This document shows, one piece after another, positions 3,100-36,430 of a DNA stretch of 36,595 nucleotides (its first letter is position 1; every line of letters starts with the position of its first letter). The position numbers were made by a program, and so were the translations under genes. The DNA is taken from positions 1 through 36,595 of IMG/VR virus record IMGVR_UViG_3300004369_000054; one strand, written 5' to 3'. The notes beneath the pieces were generated by a model. The model ran no database searches. It saw only the letters and a program-made list of their open reading frames with translations, and was not told the DNA's origin. Origin of the DNA: a virus.

Positions 3100-3789
3100 C
3101 TAACCCACAAATAATTTAAGCCTTTGGTCAAAATTCGGGTATATTGACTTTAGCTCGTCCCAAGTATGATATGTAGAATTCGGATCCTGCAATTTTTTAT
3201 TTAGCAAAATAGATTCCAAAACTTCGGCAGAATCTTTAAATTTTTCTATAGTCACATCTAAAGCCTCATAAATAGCACTTCCGCTATATGGAACTATAGA
3301 ATCTAATTGATGGTTAATCGTCAGAATTCTACCTGTAAAATCAAAATCTTCAGGGCTATTATAAGTTCCTGATACGCTGACAAGAAAATCAACACTCATT
3401 TCATCAATATGAGAAAGCAACCTCATCGCCGCCATAGCACCGTTAGAAGCACTTATAATACCCCCGTTTTTGTATGACAATCCGTACTGTTTTAAAAATT
3501 CTTCAAGCAAATCACTCAAGAATCTGTTATCAACCTTCTCCTCGTCTTTAAGCCGCCAACCTCTGTGAACTAAATTGCCGTTTGCGTCCGCAAGGATTTT
3601 ATCTCCTTGTGCAAAACAAATATAATGCTCCGGAAATAAAGTTTGTAAGGCTGTTGTAGCCTTCATTTGGTCAGGACTTCCATAGCCTCCGTGTAGGGAT
3701 AAAATCCACTTACCGTTAGGATTGACAGGCTCTACAATCACATTCTCACGGTTAACACCATTGGCATCTTGCAATGTTAATATTGACAT
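3100..3789 (-). CDS. Alpha/beta hydrolase in the tail-lysis cassette
   Basis: A 229-aa single-domain hydrolase. The oxyanion-hole motif is LHGGYG (residues 32-37). The nucleophile elbow is SASNG with Ser115, a variant of GxSxG. A likely acid is Asp163 in NHQLDSIVPY, and the likely base is His208 in STYHTW, so a complete triad can be drawn. It resembles small esterases of the LpqC/depolymerase type. It starts from ATG with a good AGGAG upstream. Lying between the tail fibre genes and the lysis genes, it may be a virion-associated deacetylase or esterase that trims host surface glycans, or a lysis esterase. The substrate is unknown. Confidence 0.7.
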   Translation of the reverse strand: MSILTLQDANGVNRENVIVEPVNPNGKWILSLHGGYGSPDQMKATTALQTLFPEHYICFAQGDKILADANGNLVHRGWRLKDEEKVDNRFLSDLLEEFLKQYGLSYKNGGIISASNGAMAAMRLLSHIDEMSVDFLVSVSGTYNSPEDFDFTGRILTINHQLDSIVPYSGSAIYEALDVTIEKFKDSAEVLESILLNKKLQDPNSTYHTWDELKSIYPNFDQRLKLFVG

Positions 3790-5508: not shown

Positions 5509-6327
5509 TTAATTTTCTAATACCGGATGCGACAATTTTTTTATCTCTTCAAAATCGCTAAGATTATTCAATTCAATCTGACATTCTTGAGGAACATCAA
5601 GCAATATCTGCCTCTTTTTCATAAGCTCTTTAATTTTGGCTTTGTTTTTATCACGCTCGGCTACGATCAAATCCTTGTCTAATTCTTCTAACTTACGGTT
5701 TCTGATTAATCGAATTTTTTCCAGTTTTATAGCTCTCGCTTTACTTATATCAACCAAAACAACGTTATTTTCTTTATTATAAAAAAGTGAATCAAAATAA
5801 TATGCATAGTCTTTTGGTAAATCGCACCGATTTATGATTGCAAAGTTGAATTTGTTTTTTAATTCTTCTATCGAATTTCTATTTAAAAATGCAAGTGCCG
5901 TTTCTTCAGTGTAATATTCTTTCTTTTGATTTTCCGGATTTATCAAATAGTTTACAGTAATATTACCTTTGTCGACTTGTTCTTGTATTGAACTTATTTT
6001 GCTATAGTTCGGCTTCTGAACTTTTATTATTTTATTTAAATTATCGTAAACTATTACCTCTGTAAAAATGCCGTTAATTTTTTTTCTAACCAGTTCTTGA
6101 GTAGGCTCTACCTTTTCATCAACAATTTCATAAGTTATAAGTTCGTTTATATCTGATACGCCCAACATAATCCTGTCTAGTAATATCCTTATGTCCTCGA
6201 TACTCTTTACGGCAACTTCAAAAATGCTTTTGCCGTATCTTTCTTGACTTTTTGAAGGAAATATTATGGAACTAACGGAAAAATCGTTTTTATAAGTTAT
6301 TATAGTTTGATTTGTTAACTTATTCAT
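5509..6327 (-). CDS. Hypothetical tail-region protein with charged C-terminal helix
   Basis: About 272 aa, Lys/Asn/Ile-rich. No catalytic motif is visible. The C-terminal section, KARAIKLEKIRLIRNRKLEELDKDL followed by KKRQILLDVPQ (given in part), matches the recurring C-terminal helix of phage tail or fibre-assembly proteins that ends in RQxLLDVP. This suggests a structural or chaperone role. The open frame extends upstream to an ATG at 6348 inside the previous gene. The MNKLTNQ start at 6327, just after that gene's stop and behind GGGAG, is preferred. Its base composition is more AT-rich than its neighbours, which may mark a later acquisition. Confidence 0.6.
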   Translation of the reverse strand: MNKLTNQTIITYKNDFSVSSIIFPSKSQERYGKSIFEVAVKSIEDIRILLDRIMLGVSDINELITYEIVDEKVEPTQELVRKKINGIFTEVIVYDNLNKIIKVQKPNYSKISSIQEQVDKGNITVNYLINPENQKKEYYTEETALAFLNRNSIEELKNKFNFAIINRCDLPKDYAYYFDSLFYNKENNVVLVDISKARAIKLEKIRLIRNRKLEELDKDLIVAERDKNKAKIKELMKKRQILLDVPQECQIELNNLSDFEEIKKLSHPVLEN

Positions 6328-6331
6328 AGTC

Positions 6332-6913
6332 TTAATTATCTCCCGCAAACATCATGTGAACTTCTGTATTACCGGTATTTTCAGTGCCATCATCCTGATG
6401 CACAGTAACGTAATATTGAGTTGTCGTTTGACTGTTGTTAGTCCCAATGCTCAGCATATTACCTTGTCCTCCGGCTTGCTGAGAAGGTATCCCTGAACCA
6501 ACGTAATTAGCGTTGGAAAACGCACTATCAAAAGTAACACGCAACTCTGTGCCAGTCACTATCGCGACAGAACTTACTCCGAAATCGTCAACTATCGTTT
6601 CAGACGAATTCCATTTAACCCACGCCTTAACAGTCTGAACATCAGATGCTAACTTCGCTTGCGTTATAGCACCATTATTTATATTTGCCGTATTTACAGC
6701 ATTACTTCCAAGTTCCGATGAACCCACAGCACCGGCAGCAATGGCATTAGCTGTAACGCTGTCGGTGTCTAACGCCGCAGCTTGAATTTTAGGAGCACCG
6801 CTCGCACCTTCAGTAATAGCAATAGGATTGTCACGCAGTTTATTCATCAAGCTAGTTGTAACAGGGCTATCAACATCAATATCCGTGTTGTTTATAGTAG
6901 TATAAGTTGTCAT
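6332..6913 (-). CDS. Short tail fibre/receptor-type structural protein
   Basis: A 193-aa protein with an N-terminal coiled segment, MNKLRDNPIAITEGASGAPK, then repeats typical of phage fibre shafts: ALDTDSVTANAIAAGAVGSSELGS, AVNTANINNGAITQAKLAS (given in part). A C-terminal beta domain follows (VKAWVKWNS...EVHMMFAGDN). The N-terminal form DSPVTTSLMNKLRDNP recurs in alphaproteobacterial phage tail genes. The ATG at 6913 overlaps the stop of the previous gene (ATGA), with GGAAAATAAT before it, and is chosen over an in-frame ATG at 6925. Confidence 0.7.
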   Translation of the reverse strand: MTTYTTINNTDIDVDSPVTTSLMNKLRDNPIAITEGASGAPKIQAAALDTDSVTANAIAAGAVGSSELGSNAVNTANINNGAITQAKLASDVQTVKAWVKWNSSETIVDDFGVSSVAIVTGTELRVTFDSAFSNANYVGSGIPSQQAGGQGNMLSIGTNNSQTTTQYYVTVHQDDGTENTGNTEVHMMFAGDN

Positions 6914-8673
6914 ATTATTTTCCAACCCTCGGTGCTATCAGACATCAATCCTGAATCATTTGTAATATAACACCCCTTATCAAGTTCCGCCTGAGTCGCA
7001 CTGCCATAATCATTTGCCGAGTTGTCCATAACAAACCCGAATCGCCCGATATAGCCGAACTTAATGCACTTATATGTTACTTTATGACCGCTCTCGACCT
7101 CATGCCGAGATATAACAAAAAATAAAGTTGAAAGCTCATCACCCTGCGGGTCAACCAGCGACCTGTGGCTTATTCTTAACACCCCGCCTACATCGATAGA
7201 ACGGTCTTTCGCATCTACCGAAAACTGCACATATACAGGGTTATCCTTGTATGACAAAACAATTTTACTTGCGGTAGATAATGCCAGTGCAGCATCGTCT
7301 TCGGTAAGCCACCTGCTATATACCGATCGGATACTTGGACCGTCATATTGATTTTCAGATTCTTTATCCAAAGCAACAGATAATTGAGCTTTCTTATAAT
7401 TAGACTCGTCTTTTAAATCTTTCGTAGGGTCGTTAACATCATAAAAGAACCATAACTGCGACACCCTTTGAGCCGGCTCTCTGGTAATACTAAAACTGTT
7501 AGCTATAATATGATTTTCTTCGGTGATATCTGTTATTGATTCATCTTGAACAGGTCGTACCGCTTGAAATTTAACCTCCTGATTTACCTCGTCCCACCAT
7601 AAAACACTTCCTGTTTGCTCCAAAAGCTCACCTATCAAAGTGGTTACACCGGTAGGCTTGGTTATAAGTGCCGATAAAATTGCATCAGACAACCAAGAAT
7701 CAGCTTCCGCCGCCCAATCTGTAGTCGGCAAATAGCTAGATGACACGTTACCGTAAGTATTTAGCAGCGTTTCAAGGATCGAATCTATCCGTTCATCGAC
7801 AAATTCAACACAAACCTGAACTAAATCCCCTTCGCTATGGTCATCTGCTTCGGTATTATTAACGGCTCTTGTTAATGTCAAATTATCCCCGGAACGTGTA
7901 AAACTCATTACCTCGTCACCTATTCTTAATTTGCCTGAAGCCGGATATTCCTCATCACCGATTCCGCTTGGTGAAAGGGTGGCAGATGTAGCAACGTCCG
8001 TTATATCTGCATTTAATGACCCGGTGTTAGATGTCGGGATTTGTGCTTTCTTATCATCGGCTAATTTTAAAATATCCTTTGCAACGATAGTCACCCTGTC
8101 GTTACTATCAACACCTGTAATCTTATCGATGATATAATGCCGGGTTCTCATGCTTGCAACACTTTGTCCTACATACCCCTCACGAACCCTTAAAGATCGG
8201 TTTTGAAAATAAGGATTCCTTTTTAACCACTTCCTCCAAAATGTGCTTTTTTCCGAAGGGTTAAACCCCCTATCGCTTTTATACTGATCAACCCTCGAAT
8301 CATTATAAGGGATATCCTTCATGCGTATAGTAACACTTGCTCTTTTGCCTAAAGGGCTTAGATTAGGATTTCCGTTTGCTAAATTTATTTCGGTAGGATT
8401 ACTACTGACACTCTCAACTATAGATATATATTGCTCACTTTCCGAAGGACCGGGGAAGCTTGCCGACTTAGTACAAAATCTCAAAGTTAAAGCCGTGCCT
8501 TTTTCATAATTCGCACTATCCTGACAAGTCGCAAACGTATTGTAGCACTTAAAATCACCCGTAACGCCGACAGAAGCCGTACAAGGGGAAGTCCCATATG
8601 TTCTGCTGCAAAAATCCTGATCTATTTCTACAATAGTTATAGGCTCTCTACCTAAAGTATTTTCATCAACCAT
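6910..8673 (-). CDS. Tail tip/hub-type protein with cysteine-rich N-terminus
   Basis: A 587-aa tail protein. The N-terminal 70 residues contain five cysteines in the order FCSRTYG, SPCTA, FKCYNTFATC and RFC (C22, C31, C43, C50, C67). This resembles the N-terminal region of lambda gpL-like tail-tip proteins, some of which bind an iron-sulphur cluster. The middle and end (IDKITGVDSNDRVTIVAKDIL, DVGGVLRISHRSLVDPQGD) resemble baseplate hub domains that orient the tail tip. It directly follows the distal tail gene with a 1-nt overlap and precedes the fibre genes, the normal order for a hub. Cluster binding is an inference from the cysteines only. Confidence 0.65.
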   Translation of the reverse strand: MVDENTLGREPITIVEIDQDFCSRTYGTSPCTASVGVTGDFKCYNTFATCQDSANYEKGTALTLRFCTKSASFPGPSESEQYISIVESVSSNPTEINLANGNPNLSPLGKRASVTIRMKDIPYNDSRVDQYKSDRGFNPSEKSTFWRKWLKRNPYFQNRSLRVREGYVGQSVASMRTRHYIIDKITGVDSNDRVTIVAKDILKLADDKKAQIPTSNTGSLNADITDVATSATLSPSGIGDEEYPASGKLRIGDEVMSFTRSGDNLTLTRAVNNTEADDHSEGDLVQVCVEFVDERIDSILETLLNTYGNVSSSYLPTTDWAAEADSWLSDAILSALITKPTGVTTLIGELLEQTGSVLWWDEVNQEVKFQAVRPVQDESITDITEENHIIANSFSITREPAQRVSQLWFFYDVNDPTKDLKDESNYKKAQLSVALDKESENQYDGPSIRSVYSRWLTEDDAALALSTASKIVLSYKDNPVYVQFSVDAKDRSIDVGGVLRISHRSLVDPQGDELSTLFFVISRHEVESGHKVTYKCIKFGYIGRFGFVMDNSANDYGSATQAELDKGCYITNDSGLMSDSTEGWKII

Positions 8674-9452: not shown

Positions 9453-11185
9453 GATAACCTCACACTTCCCAAACTAGCACCGTCACCGATTCTTTCATTA
9501 ATTCCCTTAATAATATTATCGATTTGCCGACCGCTATACAATTCATCTTCGGTTATTCCGCTTATTACCAAATCTAATATGCTCGATGCATTGCCCGAAC
9601 CCGTCCCCCCGGAGCCTGAACCGGCTCCAGTAGTTGGCGTTACAGGTGCTGCAGGTGTTGAACCTGATATTGATGGAGCCGATCCTCCCCCGCCACCTGA
9701 AAAGGATGTATTTTTAATAGACCGAATATGCTGAAAAGCAACCGCCGCATGTGCCGCTGCCATACCTACATTAACTGGAAATGGGTATGAGTTCCATGTC
9801 GTATTAATACCGTCATATGCTTTTATAGTTGCATTTGCTATTGCTGCAACTTTATTTGCTTCAAAAAAAGCTCTGTTATGCTGTGCAACACCTGCTGTTA
9901 TATTCTCAAGCTCCCCAAACACGGTTTTAGCCTGATCCTTGTATGACATTTCTTGGAATTTTTCTAATCGGCTTAAACCTTGCTTGCGAATTTCTTCAGC
10001 CTTATCTTGGTGCCGTATCATCTCATTTTCAAATAATGAATTATATTCCTGTTCTGAAATTAATTCATTTTCTTTGAATATTTGAAGTTTCTCCATTCTA
10101 GCGGCATAATTCTCATCTTCTAATTCAGATTTAGTCATTAAAGATTGCTGGAACATCTCCAAATCCCGTTGGAGTAATTCTCTTTTTCTTTCAGCCTCTT
10201 CTACCGCTTTAGCCGCCTCTTCTTCAGGCTTACCAACAGGAACCGGTGCGTTAGGATCAATCCCTCCCATACCGCTGCCCGCCATCATCGTTTGTAAATC
10301 TATCCCCTCTTTAACCAGCATATTATTTGTTTGCTGTTCCGAATTTAAAGATTTGAGCATATTCCAAACGGCACCCGTTTGAGGCATTGTCGATAATATT
10401 CTATCTCCCCATTCCTGAATCAACGGTATATTTTCACGGGTGTTGTCGGCAAGCTCTTTCATAGCATCGGCTGAGTTAATCAGCAAGTTAGTAAGACCCG
10501 CATCTCCGATGGCTTTTATTAATTTGTCAAAAGAATCATTCATATTGGACAAGGCGACATTTAATGTATCTGCCTGTCTTTCCATTGCACCTGCAAACTG
10601 ATTATCGCCGATACTTTGCAGATAACTTGATATTTCATCTGCGTTTTTTCTTATCGTAGTACTAACACCTTGAAAGGTGAATGTAACATTATCTCCTTCT
10701 TGTTTTGCTTTTATACCGAATTCTTTTAGCCGTTCAAACTCTCCGGTAGAGGCATCTGCAACCGCCTCAATCATTTGATTAAGGCCCTTACCCATTGCAC
10801 TAGCCGTATTTCCGTACGAATTTAAAGCCTTTTCGCTCGGGTCAAGACCGAGTGCTTTCATTTTGATGAATGAGTCGACAACTTCCGCTAATTGAAAAGG
10901 TGTTGTAGATGCAAAATCCTGTAATTTTTCAAATTCTTTAGCAGCCTTTTCAGAGCTGCCGGTCACTGTAATTAGTGAGGCTTCTAATTTTTCAAATTTC
11001 GTAATAACATCGGTCATGCCTTTTAAGGCAAATGCCGCACTATATGCCCCTGCAATCAATGCAAAACTAGCCTTAGCCTTATTACTAAAACCTGTTATTT
11101 GGTTATTAGCTTCGGCAAAACCTTCCTTAAGCTGTCGGTTATTAACCTCAAATTTTACTAATAACGAATCAATTGTTGTAGCCAT
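9449..11185 (-). CDS. Tail tape measure protein
   Basis: 578 aa. The N-terminal region is typical of phage tape measures: DSLLVKFEVNNRQLKEGFAEANNQ, then long helices such as FEKLEASLITVTGSSEKAAKEFEKLQDFAS and FQLAEVVDSFIKMKALGLDPSEKALNSYG (in part). A hydrophobic stretch at about residues 38-52 could insert in a membrane. A long coiled coil with many Glu and Lys follows at 310-410, and the C-terminus is Gly/Ser/Pro-rich. At about 0.15 nm per residue the tail would be near 85 nm. The ATG shares one base with the TAA of the frameshifted chaperone product (TAATG), so the two are coupled. Confidence 0.85.
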   Translation of the reverse strand: MATTIDSLLVKFEVNNRQLKEGFAEANNQITGFSNKAKASFALIAGAYSAAFALKGMTDVITKFEKLEASLITVTGSSEKAAKEFEKLQDFASTTPFQLAEVVDSFIKMKALGLDPSEKALNSYGNTASAMGKGLNQMIEAVADASTGEFERLKEFGIKAKQEGDNVTFTFQGVSTTIRKNADEISSYLQSIGDNQFAGAMERQADTLNVALSNMNDSFDKLIKAIGDAGLTNLLINSADAMKELADNTRENIPLIQEWGDRILSTMPQTGAVWNMLKSLNSEQQTNNMLVKEGIDLQTMMAGSGMGGIDPNAPVPVGKPEEEAAKAVEEAERKRELLQRDLEMFQQSLMTKSELEDENYAARMEKLQIFKENELISEQEYNSLFENEMIRHQDKAEEIRKQGLSRLEKFQEMSYKDQAKTVFGELENITAGVAQHNRAFFEANKVAAIANATIKAYDGINTTWNSYPFPVNVGMAAAHAAVAFQHIRSIKNTSFSGGGGGSAPSISGSTPAAPVTPTTGAGSGSGGTGSGNASSILDLVISGITEDELYSGRQIDNIIKGINERIGDGASLGSVRLS

Positions 11186-11726
11186 TATTTCTTTCTCACA
11201 AAAGGACGTGCTTCAGGAAGATCCATAAGTGCTCGAAGCTCTTTGATATTCATTTTGTTTTCTTTTTTGCGGGTAGCGTGGGTGTAAATAAGCCAAAATT
11301 CTTTTGGGTGCATTTTCCAAAATTCGCTTGGCTGAATATTAAAGTTCAAAATTGCAACAGCATAAAAATACGCATGAAAAGGTTCCTCTTCATAGCTGTC
11401 GTTAGTTACTTTTTTTCCGCTTGCCCTTCTACCTCCTTTTCATATTCTTCAGGCTCTTTTCCGGTTAAAAGAGGAACAATTAAATTACGAAGGTTTATCA
11501 TATGCTTGATTAGTCCGTCATTCGTTATCTTTTCAAATAATTGAGGCTTTGAATATGGTGTCGATTGAAGATGATAATATGCATTAACAATATCTGAAAC
11601 TGTTACAGTTTCTTTGACGCATCTAGTACCATAACCTACAAATGTACCCATTTCTGACTCAGCTTTCTTGATATTTTCAAATGTCGGGTTTAACTCTATT
11701 TCTTCACCTGCAAGAGTAATTTTCAT
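11185..11726 (-). CDS. Tail assembly chaperone, long form by -1 frameshift
   Basis: Reading the 106-aa short form up to AAAAAAG and slipping back one base opens 74 further codons that end exactly at the tape-measure start. This gives a product of about 180 aa. The extension contains EPFHAYFYAVAI, PSEFWKMHPKEFWLIY and LRALMDLPEARPFVRKK. The EFWxMxPxEFWL pattern is that of the GTA/HK97-type second tail chaperone (TAC, rcc01693-like). The extension has no start codon of its own near its beginning. Short and long chaperones made by -1 slippage between the major tail and tape-measure genes are an established feature of long-tailed phages (lambda G and GT). They act by coating the tape measure during tail assembly. 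Confidence 0.85.
11406..11726 (-). CDS. Tail assembly chaperone, short form (GTA gp10-like)
   Basis: 106 aa, zero-frame product ending at TAA 11408-11406. It opens KITLAGEEIELNPTFENIKKAESEMG, the pattern of GTA gene-10-like tail proteins, with TVSDIVNAYYH and MINLRNLIVPLLTGKEPEEYEKE following. In GTAs the equivalent gene lies between the major tail gene and the tape measure, as here. The last codons GAA AAA AAG form a slippery site, so this product is the abundant non-shifted chaperone. Confidence 0.8.
   Translation of the reverse strand: MKITLAGEEIELNPTFENIKKAESEMGTFVGYGTRCVKETVTVSDIVNAYYHLQSTPYSKPQLFEKITNDGLIKHMINLRNLIVPLLTGKEPEEYEKEVEGQAEKK
11409..11415 (-). other. Slippery heptamer A AAA AAG
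   Basis: The minus strand reads GCGG, then seven A residues, then GTAA. In the zero frame (GAA AAA AAG TAA) this is the canonical X XXY YYZ -1 slippery site, one codon before the stop. No strong downstream stimulatory hairpin was recognised by eye. Confidence 0.85.
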
Positions 11727-11757: not shown

Positions 11758-12177
11758 TTAAGATTTAGTTACGGCTCCGGAGCTCTCAATTGTTAAGCTA
11801 AAACCTAACGGGTCATCGGTTCCACCGCTCTCTTCAAAGCCCGTTATAATACCTGCAAAGTCAAGTGTTCCGCCGGCGTTTGAGCCGGGTACAACTATCT
11901 GAAAGTTTCGTTTAGTCCCTGCTTGAAAGTCAGTGAACAAACTATCATACGCAGCCTCATCTTTTGTCACGCCTGATATAGAAAAACTAGATGCCATACC
12001 GAACTTGCCCTCAAGCAACTCCCTAACCCCTGCATCATCATTATTGGTTACATCAACCGTTCCATTCGAATGTGATGCTGAAACACTCTGAACTCCACCA
12101 AATGTTGTGAATGTTTCAGAAGGATTTCCTCCGTCACCGACTTTAAACAACATTCCTCTTCCGGCAATTCCACCCAT
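11758..12177 (-). CDS. Major tail protein, TP901-1 family
   Basis: 139 aa. The N-terminus GGIAGRGMLFKVGDGG, the centre VDVTNNDDAGVRELLEGKFGMASSFSISGV (in part) and the end GGTLDFAGIITGFEESGGTDDPLGFSLTIESSG (in part) match the TP901-1-like major tail tube family. Monomers stack as rings to form the tail tube. It lies between the tail completion gene and the chaperone gene, as in HK97-like phages. A good AGGAGAAATT precedes the ATG. Confidence 0.85.
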   Translation of the reverse strand: MGGIAGRGMLFKVGDGGNPSETFTTFGGVQSVSASHSNGTVDVTNNDDAGVRELLEGKFGMASSFSISGVTKDEAAYDSLFTDFQAGTKRNFQIVVPGSNAGGTLDFAGIITGFEESGGTDDPLGFSLTIESSGAVTKS

Positions 12178-25466: not shown

Positions 25467-25850
25467 TTAACGCTGCCCTGTCAAATACAGGATAGTGTAT
25501 ATTGTCAAACCTTCAACCAATTAATGGGACATTCCGAATCATTATTTAAACTAATGTCCAGCGCATACAATGAATTAATTGCATCAGATCTATTCCTTTC
25601 TATCATTGCTGCTCTTTGGGTGGAGTACGCCATTTTAGCGCTAACATATGGTGTTAAAATAGAACCAACTAAAACTCCTACTAAAGCCTATACAGGACTA
25701 GGTATTTTAAACTTCTTCTTTTTTTTATCACTCATCACCCAAACACCTTCTTATTCATCGCCTCAATCTGCTCCGCCGAATGTGATTCACTCAAATGTGC
25801 ATATCTCTTTACCATATTTAAAGTCTTATGCCCCAGTAGCTCCGCAATAG
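25440..25850 (+). CDS. Hypothetical membrane protein, 3' end antisense to integrase
   Basis: 136 codons from GTG 25440 (AGGG upstream), or 109 from ATG 25524. Hydrophobic segments are TVLLALLTLPC, FLSIIAALWVEYAILALTYG and GLGILNFFFFLSLIT. The last 39 codons run antisense through the end of the integrase gene, which is not natural coding. The membrane part (to about 25730) looks real, and its C-terminus was probably replaced when the integrase-bearing DNA joined here. No family recognised. It could also be non-coding. Confidence 0.35.
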   Translation: MSATVLLALLTLPCQIQDSVYCQTFNQLMGHSESLFKLMSSAYNELIASDLFLSIIAALWVEYAILALTYGVKIEPTKTPTKAYTGLGILNFFFFLSLITQTPSYSSPQSAPPNVIHSNVHISLPYLKSYAPVAPQ

Positions 25851-26784
25851 CTGCAAGCGACGTTCCATTCATAGCCAAATAACTCGCAGCGGTATGCCGA
25901 AGGTCATGGAATCTAAAATCCTTTAACTTGGCTTGTTTAACGGCAGCTCTCCAATAAAGATCTATTTCTATTGGCTGTCCTTTGTTTCTAGACGCAAAAA
26001 CCCACCCTTCTTTCGGCTGCTTCAAGCTGACGTACAGCCCCTTAAAATGTTCGGCTGCTCTGCCTCTAAGGTATAATGTCCTACGCTCATCGTTCTTTGT
26101 TTCCTGAACAACTATTTGCCGTCTCATGCAATCATAATCTTCCCATCTGAGGTTTAATATTTCACCCTTTCTAGCTCCGGTACTGATTGCTATTAAAACA
26201 ATCAGATGCAGGTATTTACATGAGCTTTGCCGGCAAGCAATTAGCAACGCATCACGCTCGGATTCGTTCAAAAACCTCACACGTCCTCGTGGCTCTTTAA
26301 ATTTTGTTGCTTTTTTCATCGGGTTCTCCGTTATCCAATCCCATTCTTTGTAAGCCTTTGTCATTACGTGACTAAGTGCAGCTAAATATCTATTTGCGGT
26401 CGCAGATGCAACTCTCCTTCTGAGCAAATCACGCTCCTTAGTAACAACTGCAGGAGTAATATTAATAAGCGTGTACGCCCCTATTCTGGCTCTCCACCAT
26501 AATAACTGCCCTTTTTGTTGCGATATGTAGCGAGTTTTCTTTGATTTTATAGGCAATACGTCATTAATATAACGGTCAATCGCATCCGCCATAGTATATT
26601 TCTTCGCAGCAGAATTCTTGTCATATCTCCCCTCACGTATTTCAGTTTCTATCTTAGCCGCCCATGCGACGGCATCTCTTTTTTTGTCAAAAGTTGCTGA
26701 CGCTACAGGATATCCCTTGATTCTAACCCTTGCCCGATAAACAGCCCTGCCGCTAACTAATATTTTCTTTTCAAAATCTGCCAT
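25735..26784 (-). CDS. Tyrosine recombinase/integrase, second copy in window
   Basis: 349 aa. An N-terminal arm-binding domain (RARVRIKGYPVASATFDKKRDAVAWA, in part) is followed by a SAM-like core-binding domain and the catalytic domain. The catalytic set is complete: Arg205 in STGARKGEIL, Lys230 in ETKND, His293 and Arg296 in FHDLRHTAASYL, His319 in LLGHK, and Tyr328 in VKRYAHLS. It makes site-specific strand exchanges. Two TTGTCCTTT repeats lie just upstream, perhaps arm sites. It sits in the middle of the prophage, unlike a normal prophage integrase, so it probably belongs to a nested element. It differs clearly in sequence from the integrase at 35396. Confidence 0.93.
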   Translation of the reverse strand: MADFEKKILVSGRAVYRARVRIKGYPVASATFDKKRDAVAWAAKIETEIREGRYDKNSAAKKYTMADAIDRYINDVLPIKSKKTRYISQQKGQLLWWRARIGAYTLINITPAVVTKERDLLRRRVASATANRYLAALSHVMTKAYKEWDWITENPMKKATKFKEPRGRVRFLNESERDALLIACRQSSCKYLHLIVLIAISTGARKGEILNLRWEDYDCMRRQIVVQETKNDERRTLYLRGRAAEHFKGLYVSLKQPKEGWVFASRNKGQPIEIDLYWRAAVKQAKLKDFRFHDLRHTAASYLAMNGTSLAAIAELLGHKTLNMVKRYAHLSESHSAEQIEAMNKKVFG

Positions 26785-35172: not shown

Positions 35173-35403
35173 ATGCAAAACAGCATCTGCCTTACAGAAA
35201 ATGAAATACAACAGATAACCAACAGGAAGCGTAGGGATTGCCAGATTACGGCTTTATCACAAATGGGGGTGGATTTTAAACGTAGACCTGACGGAAGTAT
35301 AGTTATTTTACGAAAGCATTTTAATAATGTAATGGGCGGTGATATAAAACAATCTAATAACCCTGATAAATTTCAGGCAAACTGGAATATGGTAAATGCC
35401 TAA
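35173..35403 (+). CDS. DUF4224 protein, integrase partner
   Basis: 76 aa. The pattern CLTENEIQQITNRKRRDCQITALSQMGVDFKRRPDGSIVILR (in part) is DUF4224, in which LTxxE...T....xQ...L..mGI.f..r.DG...VlR recurs. Such genes lie directly before phage integrases and are thought to help recombination direction. It overlaps the integrase by 8 nt, so the two are translated together. Confidence 0.85.
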   Translation: MQNSICLTENEIQQITNRKRRDCQITALSQMGVDFKRRPDGSIVILRKHFNNVMGGDIKQSNNPDKFQANWNMVNA

Positions 35404-36430
35404 GAGAAATAAAGAAAATAAAGGTCTGCCGAAAAGATGGCAATACAAACACAATGCCTATTACTACCGAGTTCCTGTCGGGCAAGAACATTTATGGGAT
35501 TGGAAGACTATTTATAGGTTGGGGAAAACTCTGTCAGAGGCACACAGAGAGTATGCTAACAAAGTAGAAATAAAACATAATGCAAATACCATAGGTGATC
35601 TACTTGATGAATATGCCATTAAGATAATTCCGTTTAAAGCCCCAAAAACAAGAAAAGATAACTACGCTCAGCTTAAGAGGTTGAAGTTAGTTTTTGGAGA
35701 GGCTCACCTTATTGATATCAAGCCTATGCACATTTATCGTTATTATAATGAAAGAGCTGCTAAGGTAGCCGCAAAAAGAGAAATAGCATTACTATCACAC
35801 GCATTCACAGTTGCAGTTGAATGGGGATATCTTAGCCGTCACCCTTTTAAAGGGCAAGTTACTCTTAAAAACAATGCACCAAGAGACAGATATATTGAGG
35901 ATTGGGAAATAGAACAATGCTCAAAATTAACACAAAGAGCTCAAAGAGGGGGTGTTTTGATGATACAGGCATATATCAACTTAAAACTACTTACCGGTCT
36001 TAGAAAAACGGATCTATTGAAAATAGAGTTATCCGATATTACAAATGACGGTCTATATGTCCAAACTAGCAAAACTTCTAAAAAGGCGTTATATTTATGG
36101 ACCGATGATTTTCGAGCAGCAATAAAAACTGCAAAAACAGTGCGTCCGGTTGATATCTCAAAATATTTATTCTGTACTAAATATGGAAAAAGCTACCTAA
36201 ATGAAGATGGCACTACCAGTGGTTTTGATAGTATGTGGCAAAGATTTATGAAAAGATTGATAGTAGAAACCGATGTAAATGAAACTTTCACAGAGCACGA
36301 TCTAAGAGCAAAAGCTGCAAGTGATCTGGAAACTGATGAACGAGCTCAAGAGCTACTCGGCCACTCAAATGTGCTTTTAACTAAAAAAGTTTATCGTAGG
36401 AAACTTGTTACAATAATGCCTACGAGATAA
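35396..36430 (+). CDS. int: Phage tyrosine integrase
   Basis: 344 aa. N-terminal arm domain with LPKRWQYKHNAYYYRVPVG, core-binding domain about 65-155, catalytic domain with Arg203 (TGLRKTDLLKI), Lys226 (TSKTSKK), His301 and Arg304 (EHDLRAKAAS), His323 (LLGHSN) and Tyr333 (KKVYRR). The usual second His of HxxRH is Ala, as in some related integrases. It lies beside tRNA-Thr, with arm-type repeats between, so it is the integrase of this prophage. It belongs to the repressor-controlled rightward operon, so it is expressed on induction together with DUF4224. Confidence 0.93.
   Translation: MPKRNKENKGLPKRWQYKHNAYYYRVPVGQEHLWDWKTIYRLGKTLSEAHREYANKVEIKHNANTIGDLLDEYAIKIIPFKAPKTRKDNYAQLKRLKLVFGEAHLIDIKPMHIYRYYNERAAKVAAKREIALLSHAFTVAVEWGYLSRHPFKGQVTLKNNAPRDRYIEDWEIEQCSKLTQRAQRGGVLMIQAYINLKLLTGLRKTDLLKIELSDITNDGLYVQTSKTSKKALYLWTDDFRAAIKTAKTVRPVDISKYLFCTKYGKSYLNEDGTTSGFDSMWQRFMKRLIVETDVNETFTEHDLRAKAASDLETDERAQELLGHSNVLLTKKVYRRKLVTIMPTR

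Follow-up and report, generated by a model that had tools for sequence, protein, structure and literature searches.

Architecture of the tail chaperone locus

The window, by which we mean the whole 36,595-nucleotide stretch of DNA that was analysed, comes from a prophage, a bacterial virus carried in the chromosome of its host. The feature described here lies on its minus strand, in a chaperone locus flanked upstream by a PF06199 tail tube gene and downstream by a PF20155 tape-measure gene (Table 1). Inspection of the sequence showed that the zero-frame chaperone ORF ends in ...GCG GAA AAA AAG TAA, with its stop codon at 11408-11406. The -1 frame has a stop just upstream of the overlap and is then open through A AAA AAG into GTA ACT..., continuing after the heptamer for 74 sense codons (11409-11188) to a TAA at 11187-11185, which gives a predicted long form of 180 residues. 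The tape-measure ATG (11185-11183) begins on the last A of this TAA. The zero-frame end and the 74-codon opening that runs to TAATG, both part of the original prediction, are therefore all present in the sequence. Its further statement, that the extension has no start codon of its own, holds for the stretch between the upstream -1 stop and the conserved domain, where no ATG, GTG or TTG occurs, but not for the domain itself, which contains one TTG as well as ATG codons in this frame. Because they all lie inside the conserved domain, we consider these codons implausible starts.

Table 1. Features of the chaperone locus and its neighbours, in window coordinates
Feature	Position	Strand	Basis or remark
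Tail tube protein, upstream neighbour	11758-12177	-	PF06199, 65.7 bits
Zero-frame tail assembly chaperone, short form, 106 aa	11406-11726	-	Divergent GTA-gp10/PF11836 type
AAGGAGGT, Shine-Dalgarno-like candidate frameshift stimulator	11431-11438	-	15 nt upstream of heptamer
Slippery heptamer A AAA AAG	11409-11415	-	Sequence; abuts zero-frame TAA
Predicted stem-loop, candidate stimulator	11355-11401	-	Begins 7 nt after heptamer; MFE -15.5 kcal/mol, z -3.05
-1 frame extension, TAC_6-type second chaperone domain, 74 codons + TAA, without own start	11185-11409	-	PF09550, weak TIGR02216, alignment, all-helical model
TAATG, extension stop overlapping tape-measure start codon	11183-11187	-	Sequence
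Tape-measure protein, 578 aa	9449-11185	-	PF20155, 55.9 bits; PHROG tape-measure families

Elsewhere in the window, an IS1595-type transposase gene (PF12762; 23758-24645, plus strand) adjoins the terminase end of the prophage, and two phage integrase genes (25735-26784, minus strand; 35396-36430, plus strand) perhaps mark two adjacent elements. The tail region also encodes a putative alpha/beta-hydrolase-like protein (3100-3789, minus strand), in which GGYGSP and SASNGA motifs were seen by eye and for which no Pfam match was found, and a tail-fibre-region protein (5509-6348, minus strand) with a sub-threshold match to PF16778 (Phage_tail_APC).

Identity of the two chaperone parts

The -1 extension scored 26.7 bits against PF09550 (Phage_TAC_6), above the gathering cutoff of 23.4 bits, and was called by the genome search as well. 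PF09550/rcc01693 is the family of g10.5, the second tail chaperone of RcGTA (PMC11409702). The extension also matched the rcc01693 family model TIGR02216 weakly, includes SEFWKMHPKEFWLIY, and was modelled as an all-helical protein (pLDDT 70). Its alignment with TAC_6 proteins, which had been suggested as a check, gave matches around SEFWKMHPKEFW and at the terminal LMD-LPE, so that the resemblance to the second GTA chaperone noticed in the bare sequence is confirmed.

The zero-frame protein reached 13.7 bits against PF11836 (Phage_TAC_11, GTA-gp10), below the gathering cutoff of 27.8 bits, and we therefore regard it as a probable divergent, gp10-like relative and not as a member of that family. 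Its relatedness to gp10 is argued from its position, from its counterpart in Oceanospirillum phage GJ44 (see below) and from a wider profile built from 33 gp10 sequences, which it matched with E=0.01 over residues 5-98. Judged by these comparisons, homology appears strong for the extension and weaker for the zero frame. A Foldseek search with the low-confidence model of the zero-frame protein (P0002, pLDDT 62) returned nothing, and a sequence search of the PDB gave no meaningful match and no solved structure for either chaperone part.

In-phase A AAA AA[G/C] occurs 8 times in the 6,773 codons of the tail and head genes of the window, corresponding to a chance expectation of ~1% within the 10-codon overlap. 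The heptamer taken alone is thus suggestive, and it is the homology of the extension to PF09550, together with conservation in relatives, that makes the observed architecture secure.

Conservation in relatives of the window phage

When the fusion itself was searched for in 56 genomes and viral contigs, the sole match was the window's own genome; it was PF09550 and the tail-tip protein that led to relatives. The tail-fibre protein at 6910-8673 has relatives in GJ44, Idiomarinaceae phage 1N2-2 and Marinomonas phage P12026, and further ones in Pseudanabaena phage Pan4, Microcystis phages and ctUhy936. The -1 relation, the absent start and the slippery site are conserved in relatives. The GJ44 counterpart of the zero-frame gene, annotated as 'gene transfer agent family protein', ends in GGA AAA AAG TAG; here A AAA AAG abuts the stop as it does in the window, and a start-less, TAC_6-like -1 extension runs into the tape-measure gene. 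The overlaps of 1N2-2 and P12026 contain A AAA AAG further upstream, that of ctUhy936 contains G GGA AAA, and those of Pan4 and JY02 showed no canonical heptamer. Overlaps of 1-8 nt between extension and tape measure, similar to the TAATG of the window, are found in GJ44, 1N2-2, P12026 and Pan4. Pseudomonas PaMx74, Stenotrophomonas AXL_1 and Pseudoalteromonas H105/1 were set aside as relatives: they have the tape-measure or tail-fibre region in common but encode a different chaperone family.

The same tail-tip protein was found in 80 IMG/VR contigs, 53 of which had a chaperone candidate, leaving 41 pairs after dereplication. The extension is in the -1 frame in all 41, and one candidate in another frame was rejected as a spurious match (E=2.9). 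Thirty-eight of the 41 pairs are start-less, and 31 of these 38 carry an in-phase A/T-type slippery heptamer. The relatives of the window phage thus do not present the picture, a second frame with its own start and no slippery site, that the original prediction had set against frameshifting. Counted per position, heptamers occurred at 44 of 764 positions in the slippery phase versus 10 of 805 and 6 of 764 in the other phases, and at 7 of 3554 positions in the gene body. A canonical heptamer was missing from 7 of the 38 start-less viral pairs, many of which end the zero frame with GGGGGAGTAA. In window-like viral contigs with no canonical heptamer (L289, L290, L294, L296, L297, L298, L316 and L334), the zero frame often ends in GGGGGAGTAA where the window has AAAAAAGTAA.

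As a start-less gene, the second chaperone has been truncated or omitted in deposited annotations (L048, 2864-3040; L347, 943-1107; L049). The records of GJ44 and ctuI7215 hold a fragment beginning within the domain, and that of 1N2-2 holds none, so the annotated tail module is incomplete in all three, just as had been anticipated for gene callers.

A wider survey of gp10/TAC_6 pairs

We extended the analysis with a PF09550 search of 385 genomes of the class plus three further orders and with a gp10 profile search of a named genome collection, which yielded 229 dereplicated gp10/TAC_6 loci. GTG codons inside the TAC domain were not counted as starts. The -1 relation, with ATGA overlaps counted in, was found in 212 of the 229 loci. 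An in-phase A/T-type heptamer was present in 88 of 115 start-less pairs versus 11 of 81 pairs with ATG or GTG (Fisher p ~5e-19, a value not to be taken literally because the loci are related and the test treats them as independent). Any X XXY YYZ was present in 104 of the 115 start-less pairs and none in the other 11. Start-less loci carried heptamers at 93 of 2535 positions in the slippery phase versus 0 of 2650 and 5 of 2535 in the other phases, with 5 of 9653 positions in the gp10 body; when the CCCTTT family, which also encodes the conserved PFPW, was left out, the slippery phase still had 32 of 2535. A weakly supported tree of the loci gave 33 state changes. Independent pairs on its supported branches pointed in the expected direction (4.3 versus 0.4), although they were too few (median p 0.125).

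A Phe-codon test was tried and discarded: TTT in place of TTC at FPW is enriched in start-less (53/63) and also in start-bearing loci (29/42), so that the test is confounded, and by eye the preceding CCC is the only feature that separates the two groups. A further sequence, AAACCCT (Asn-Pro codons), recurs in phase just before the gp10 stop in L192, L189, L206, L249, L345, L346 and others. These loci are start-less or have only TTG, for example in Methylocystis and Rhizobiales MAGs, and AAACCCT may be an undescribed slippery site.

Gene transfer agents contain both arrangements

In RcGTA, g10 and g10.5 are treated as two genes (PMC11409702). The original prediction took this separation to be the rule in GTAs. 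It applies to the RcGTA-like loci L003 and L004, which have ATGA overlaps and no heptamer (ATGA overlaps were also seen in Devosia and Rhodopseudomonas loci), but not to GTAs at large, since many of the frameshift-type loci are GTA-like clusters in which the second chaperone lacks a start, lies in the -1 frame and comes with a slippery heptamer (CCCTTTC or GGGAAAG). In a Hyphomicrobiaceae locus (L195), the genes follow GTA order: capsid, tail tube, gp10, CCCTTTC with a start-less TAC_6, a 202-aa tape measure, DUF2460, a phiJL001-Gp84/BR0599 hub protein and an NlpC/P60 peptidase. CCCTTTC junctions were also found in Hyphomicrobium, and GGGAAAG junctions in Hyphomicrobiales MAGs. At the level of gene arrangement, these loci demonstrate that GTA-type tails, those of GTA clusters included, encode their gp10/TAC_6 pair in two ways: as separate genes or as a predicted slippery fusion.

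Proposed mechanism

We consider it very probable that a programmed -1 frameshift joins the GTA-gp10-type chaperone to the TAC_6-type chaperone, yielding a short form of 106 and a long form of 180 residues. Most ribosomes would stop at the zero-frame TAA and release the short chaperone, whereas some would slip back by one base on A AAA AAG and read 74 more codons. The data best support a mechanism in which the tRNAs on AAA AAG slip back by one base in tandem, and the C-terminal TAC_6 domain would then be present solely as part of the long-form fusion. As the TAATG overlap suggests, shifted ribosomes may restart on the tape-measure gene, which would tie its output to that of the long form. We infer the slippage itself, its efficiency, the two stimulators and, as for lambda G/GT, a role of the long form in tape-measure coating or loading.

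The upstream candidate stimulator, AAGGAGGT, is complementary to GGATTACCTCCTTT at the 3' end of the host 16S rRNA, and no start codon lies 5-13 nt beyond it. Within the 21-kb operon there are two copies of AGGAGG, neither of them ahead of a gene start. Since a Shine-Dalgarno-like element was looked for in GJ44 and none was seen, a stimulatory role of AAGGAGGT is put forward as a conjecture. The stability of the predicted downstream stem-loop is matched by 2.9% of operon windows of like G+C; the structure is moderately unusual for the operon, which lends weak support to its being a stimulator.

Could the second chaperone arise independently of frameshifting, through internal initiation or through translational coupling? 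In homologues with ATGA or GTGA overlaps it does (81 of the 229 loci stand in the -1 relation and carry an ATG or GTG), and the TTG and ATG codons of the window could be invoked as starts. Using them, however, would cost the protein its first helix or more, no ATG, GTG or TTG lies ahead of the domain, and AAGGAGGT is not followed by a start at a suitable distance. Window-like relatives, moreover, are all in -1 relation, nearly all start-less and mostly equipped with a slippery site, and we regard separate initiation at this locus as very unlikely. Equally improbable in our view is a fusion mRNA produced by transcriptional slippage on the A run. The window has seven A residues, and runs of nine A (TTTAAAAAAAAAT) occur at the junction in L265, L312 and L337, but most relatives' heptamers contain no long homopolymer (GGGAAAC, GGGAAAG, CCCTTTC, A6G) and are phased appropriately for tandem tRNA slippage. 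Efficient slippage by bacterial polymerases occurs on A runs longer than seven, which also argues against this explanation for the window. The nine-A junctions could permit transcriptional slippage alongside ribosomal frameshifting in those three loci.

That the frame break is an assembly error, or the trace of a decayed and formerly continuous ORF, is scarcely credible: homopolymers do attract errors, and we found nothing closely related to the prophage, yet the -1 break is kept in dozens of records that are independent of one another and use many different slippery sequences, and the extension retains its family signature. Programmed -1 frameshifting, as originally proposed, thus stands as the best reading on the strength of homology and of conservation in relatives.

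Comparison with known systems and implications

That tail assembly chaperone genes conserve a -1 frameshift, as in lambda G/GT, was reportedly described by Xu, Hendrix and Duda in 2004. The predicted mechanism of the window is this known one: the locus shares with lambda G/GT the position before the tape measure, a short and a -1 extended form, an X XXY YYZ site and a start-less second part. The proteins differ, those of the window being the PF11836/PF09550 pair of GTA-type tails, and no sequence link of the window chaperones to lambda G or T was found. In the E. coli dnaX cassette, A AAA AAG is preceded by a Shine-Dalgarno-like element at a spacer of ~10 nt and followed by a stem; the arrangement in the window is similar, as a resemblance only, and its spacer is 15 nt. 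Known tail-chaperone frameshifts sit directly before the tape measure (PMC3556154, PMC3711429, PMC10885494). RcGTA encodes both families, likewise in this order ahead of the tape measure, but as two separate genes, with ATGA overlaps in RcGTA-like loci, in place of the frameshift architecture of the window (PMC11409702). In phiCbK, the tail chaperone frameshift is annotated 'programmed frameshift' (NC_019405; PMC3556154) and likewise precedes the tape measure among distantly GTA-like tail genes. We considered phiCbK as a homologous precedent and rejected it, as neither chaperone part convincingly matches the gp10 or TAC_6 profiles built here. With -1 frameshifting at this position long known in phage tails and already annotated in phiCbK, the window is a new example and not a new principle.

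Among the open-access papers searched we found none on frameshifting in a GTA chaperone pair, which is not proof of novelty. Based on the loci surveyed here, it seems likely that GTAs as well as phages use programmed -1 frameshifting, and that the g10/TAC_6 pair has two interchangeable states, ATGA-type separate genes and slippery fusion, between which alphaproteobacterial GTAs have repeatedly switched. If true, this switching would serve as a natural experiment that asks what tail phages need a fused long form for. With one gene pair found in both states, domesticated GTAs included, it may become testable whether tails need a covalent long form, a fixed ratio or just both domains.
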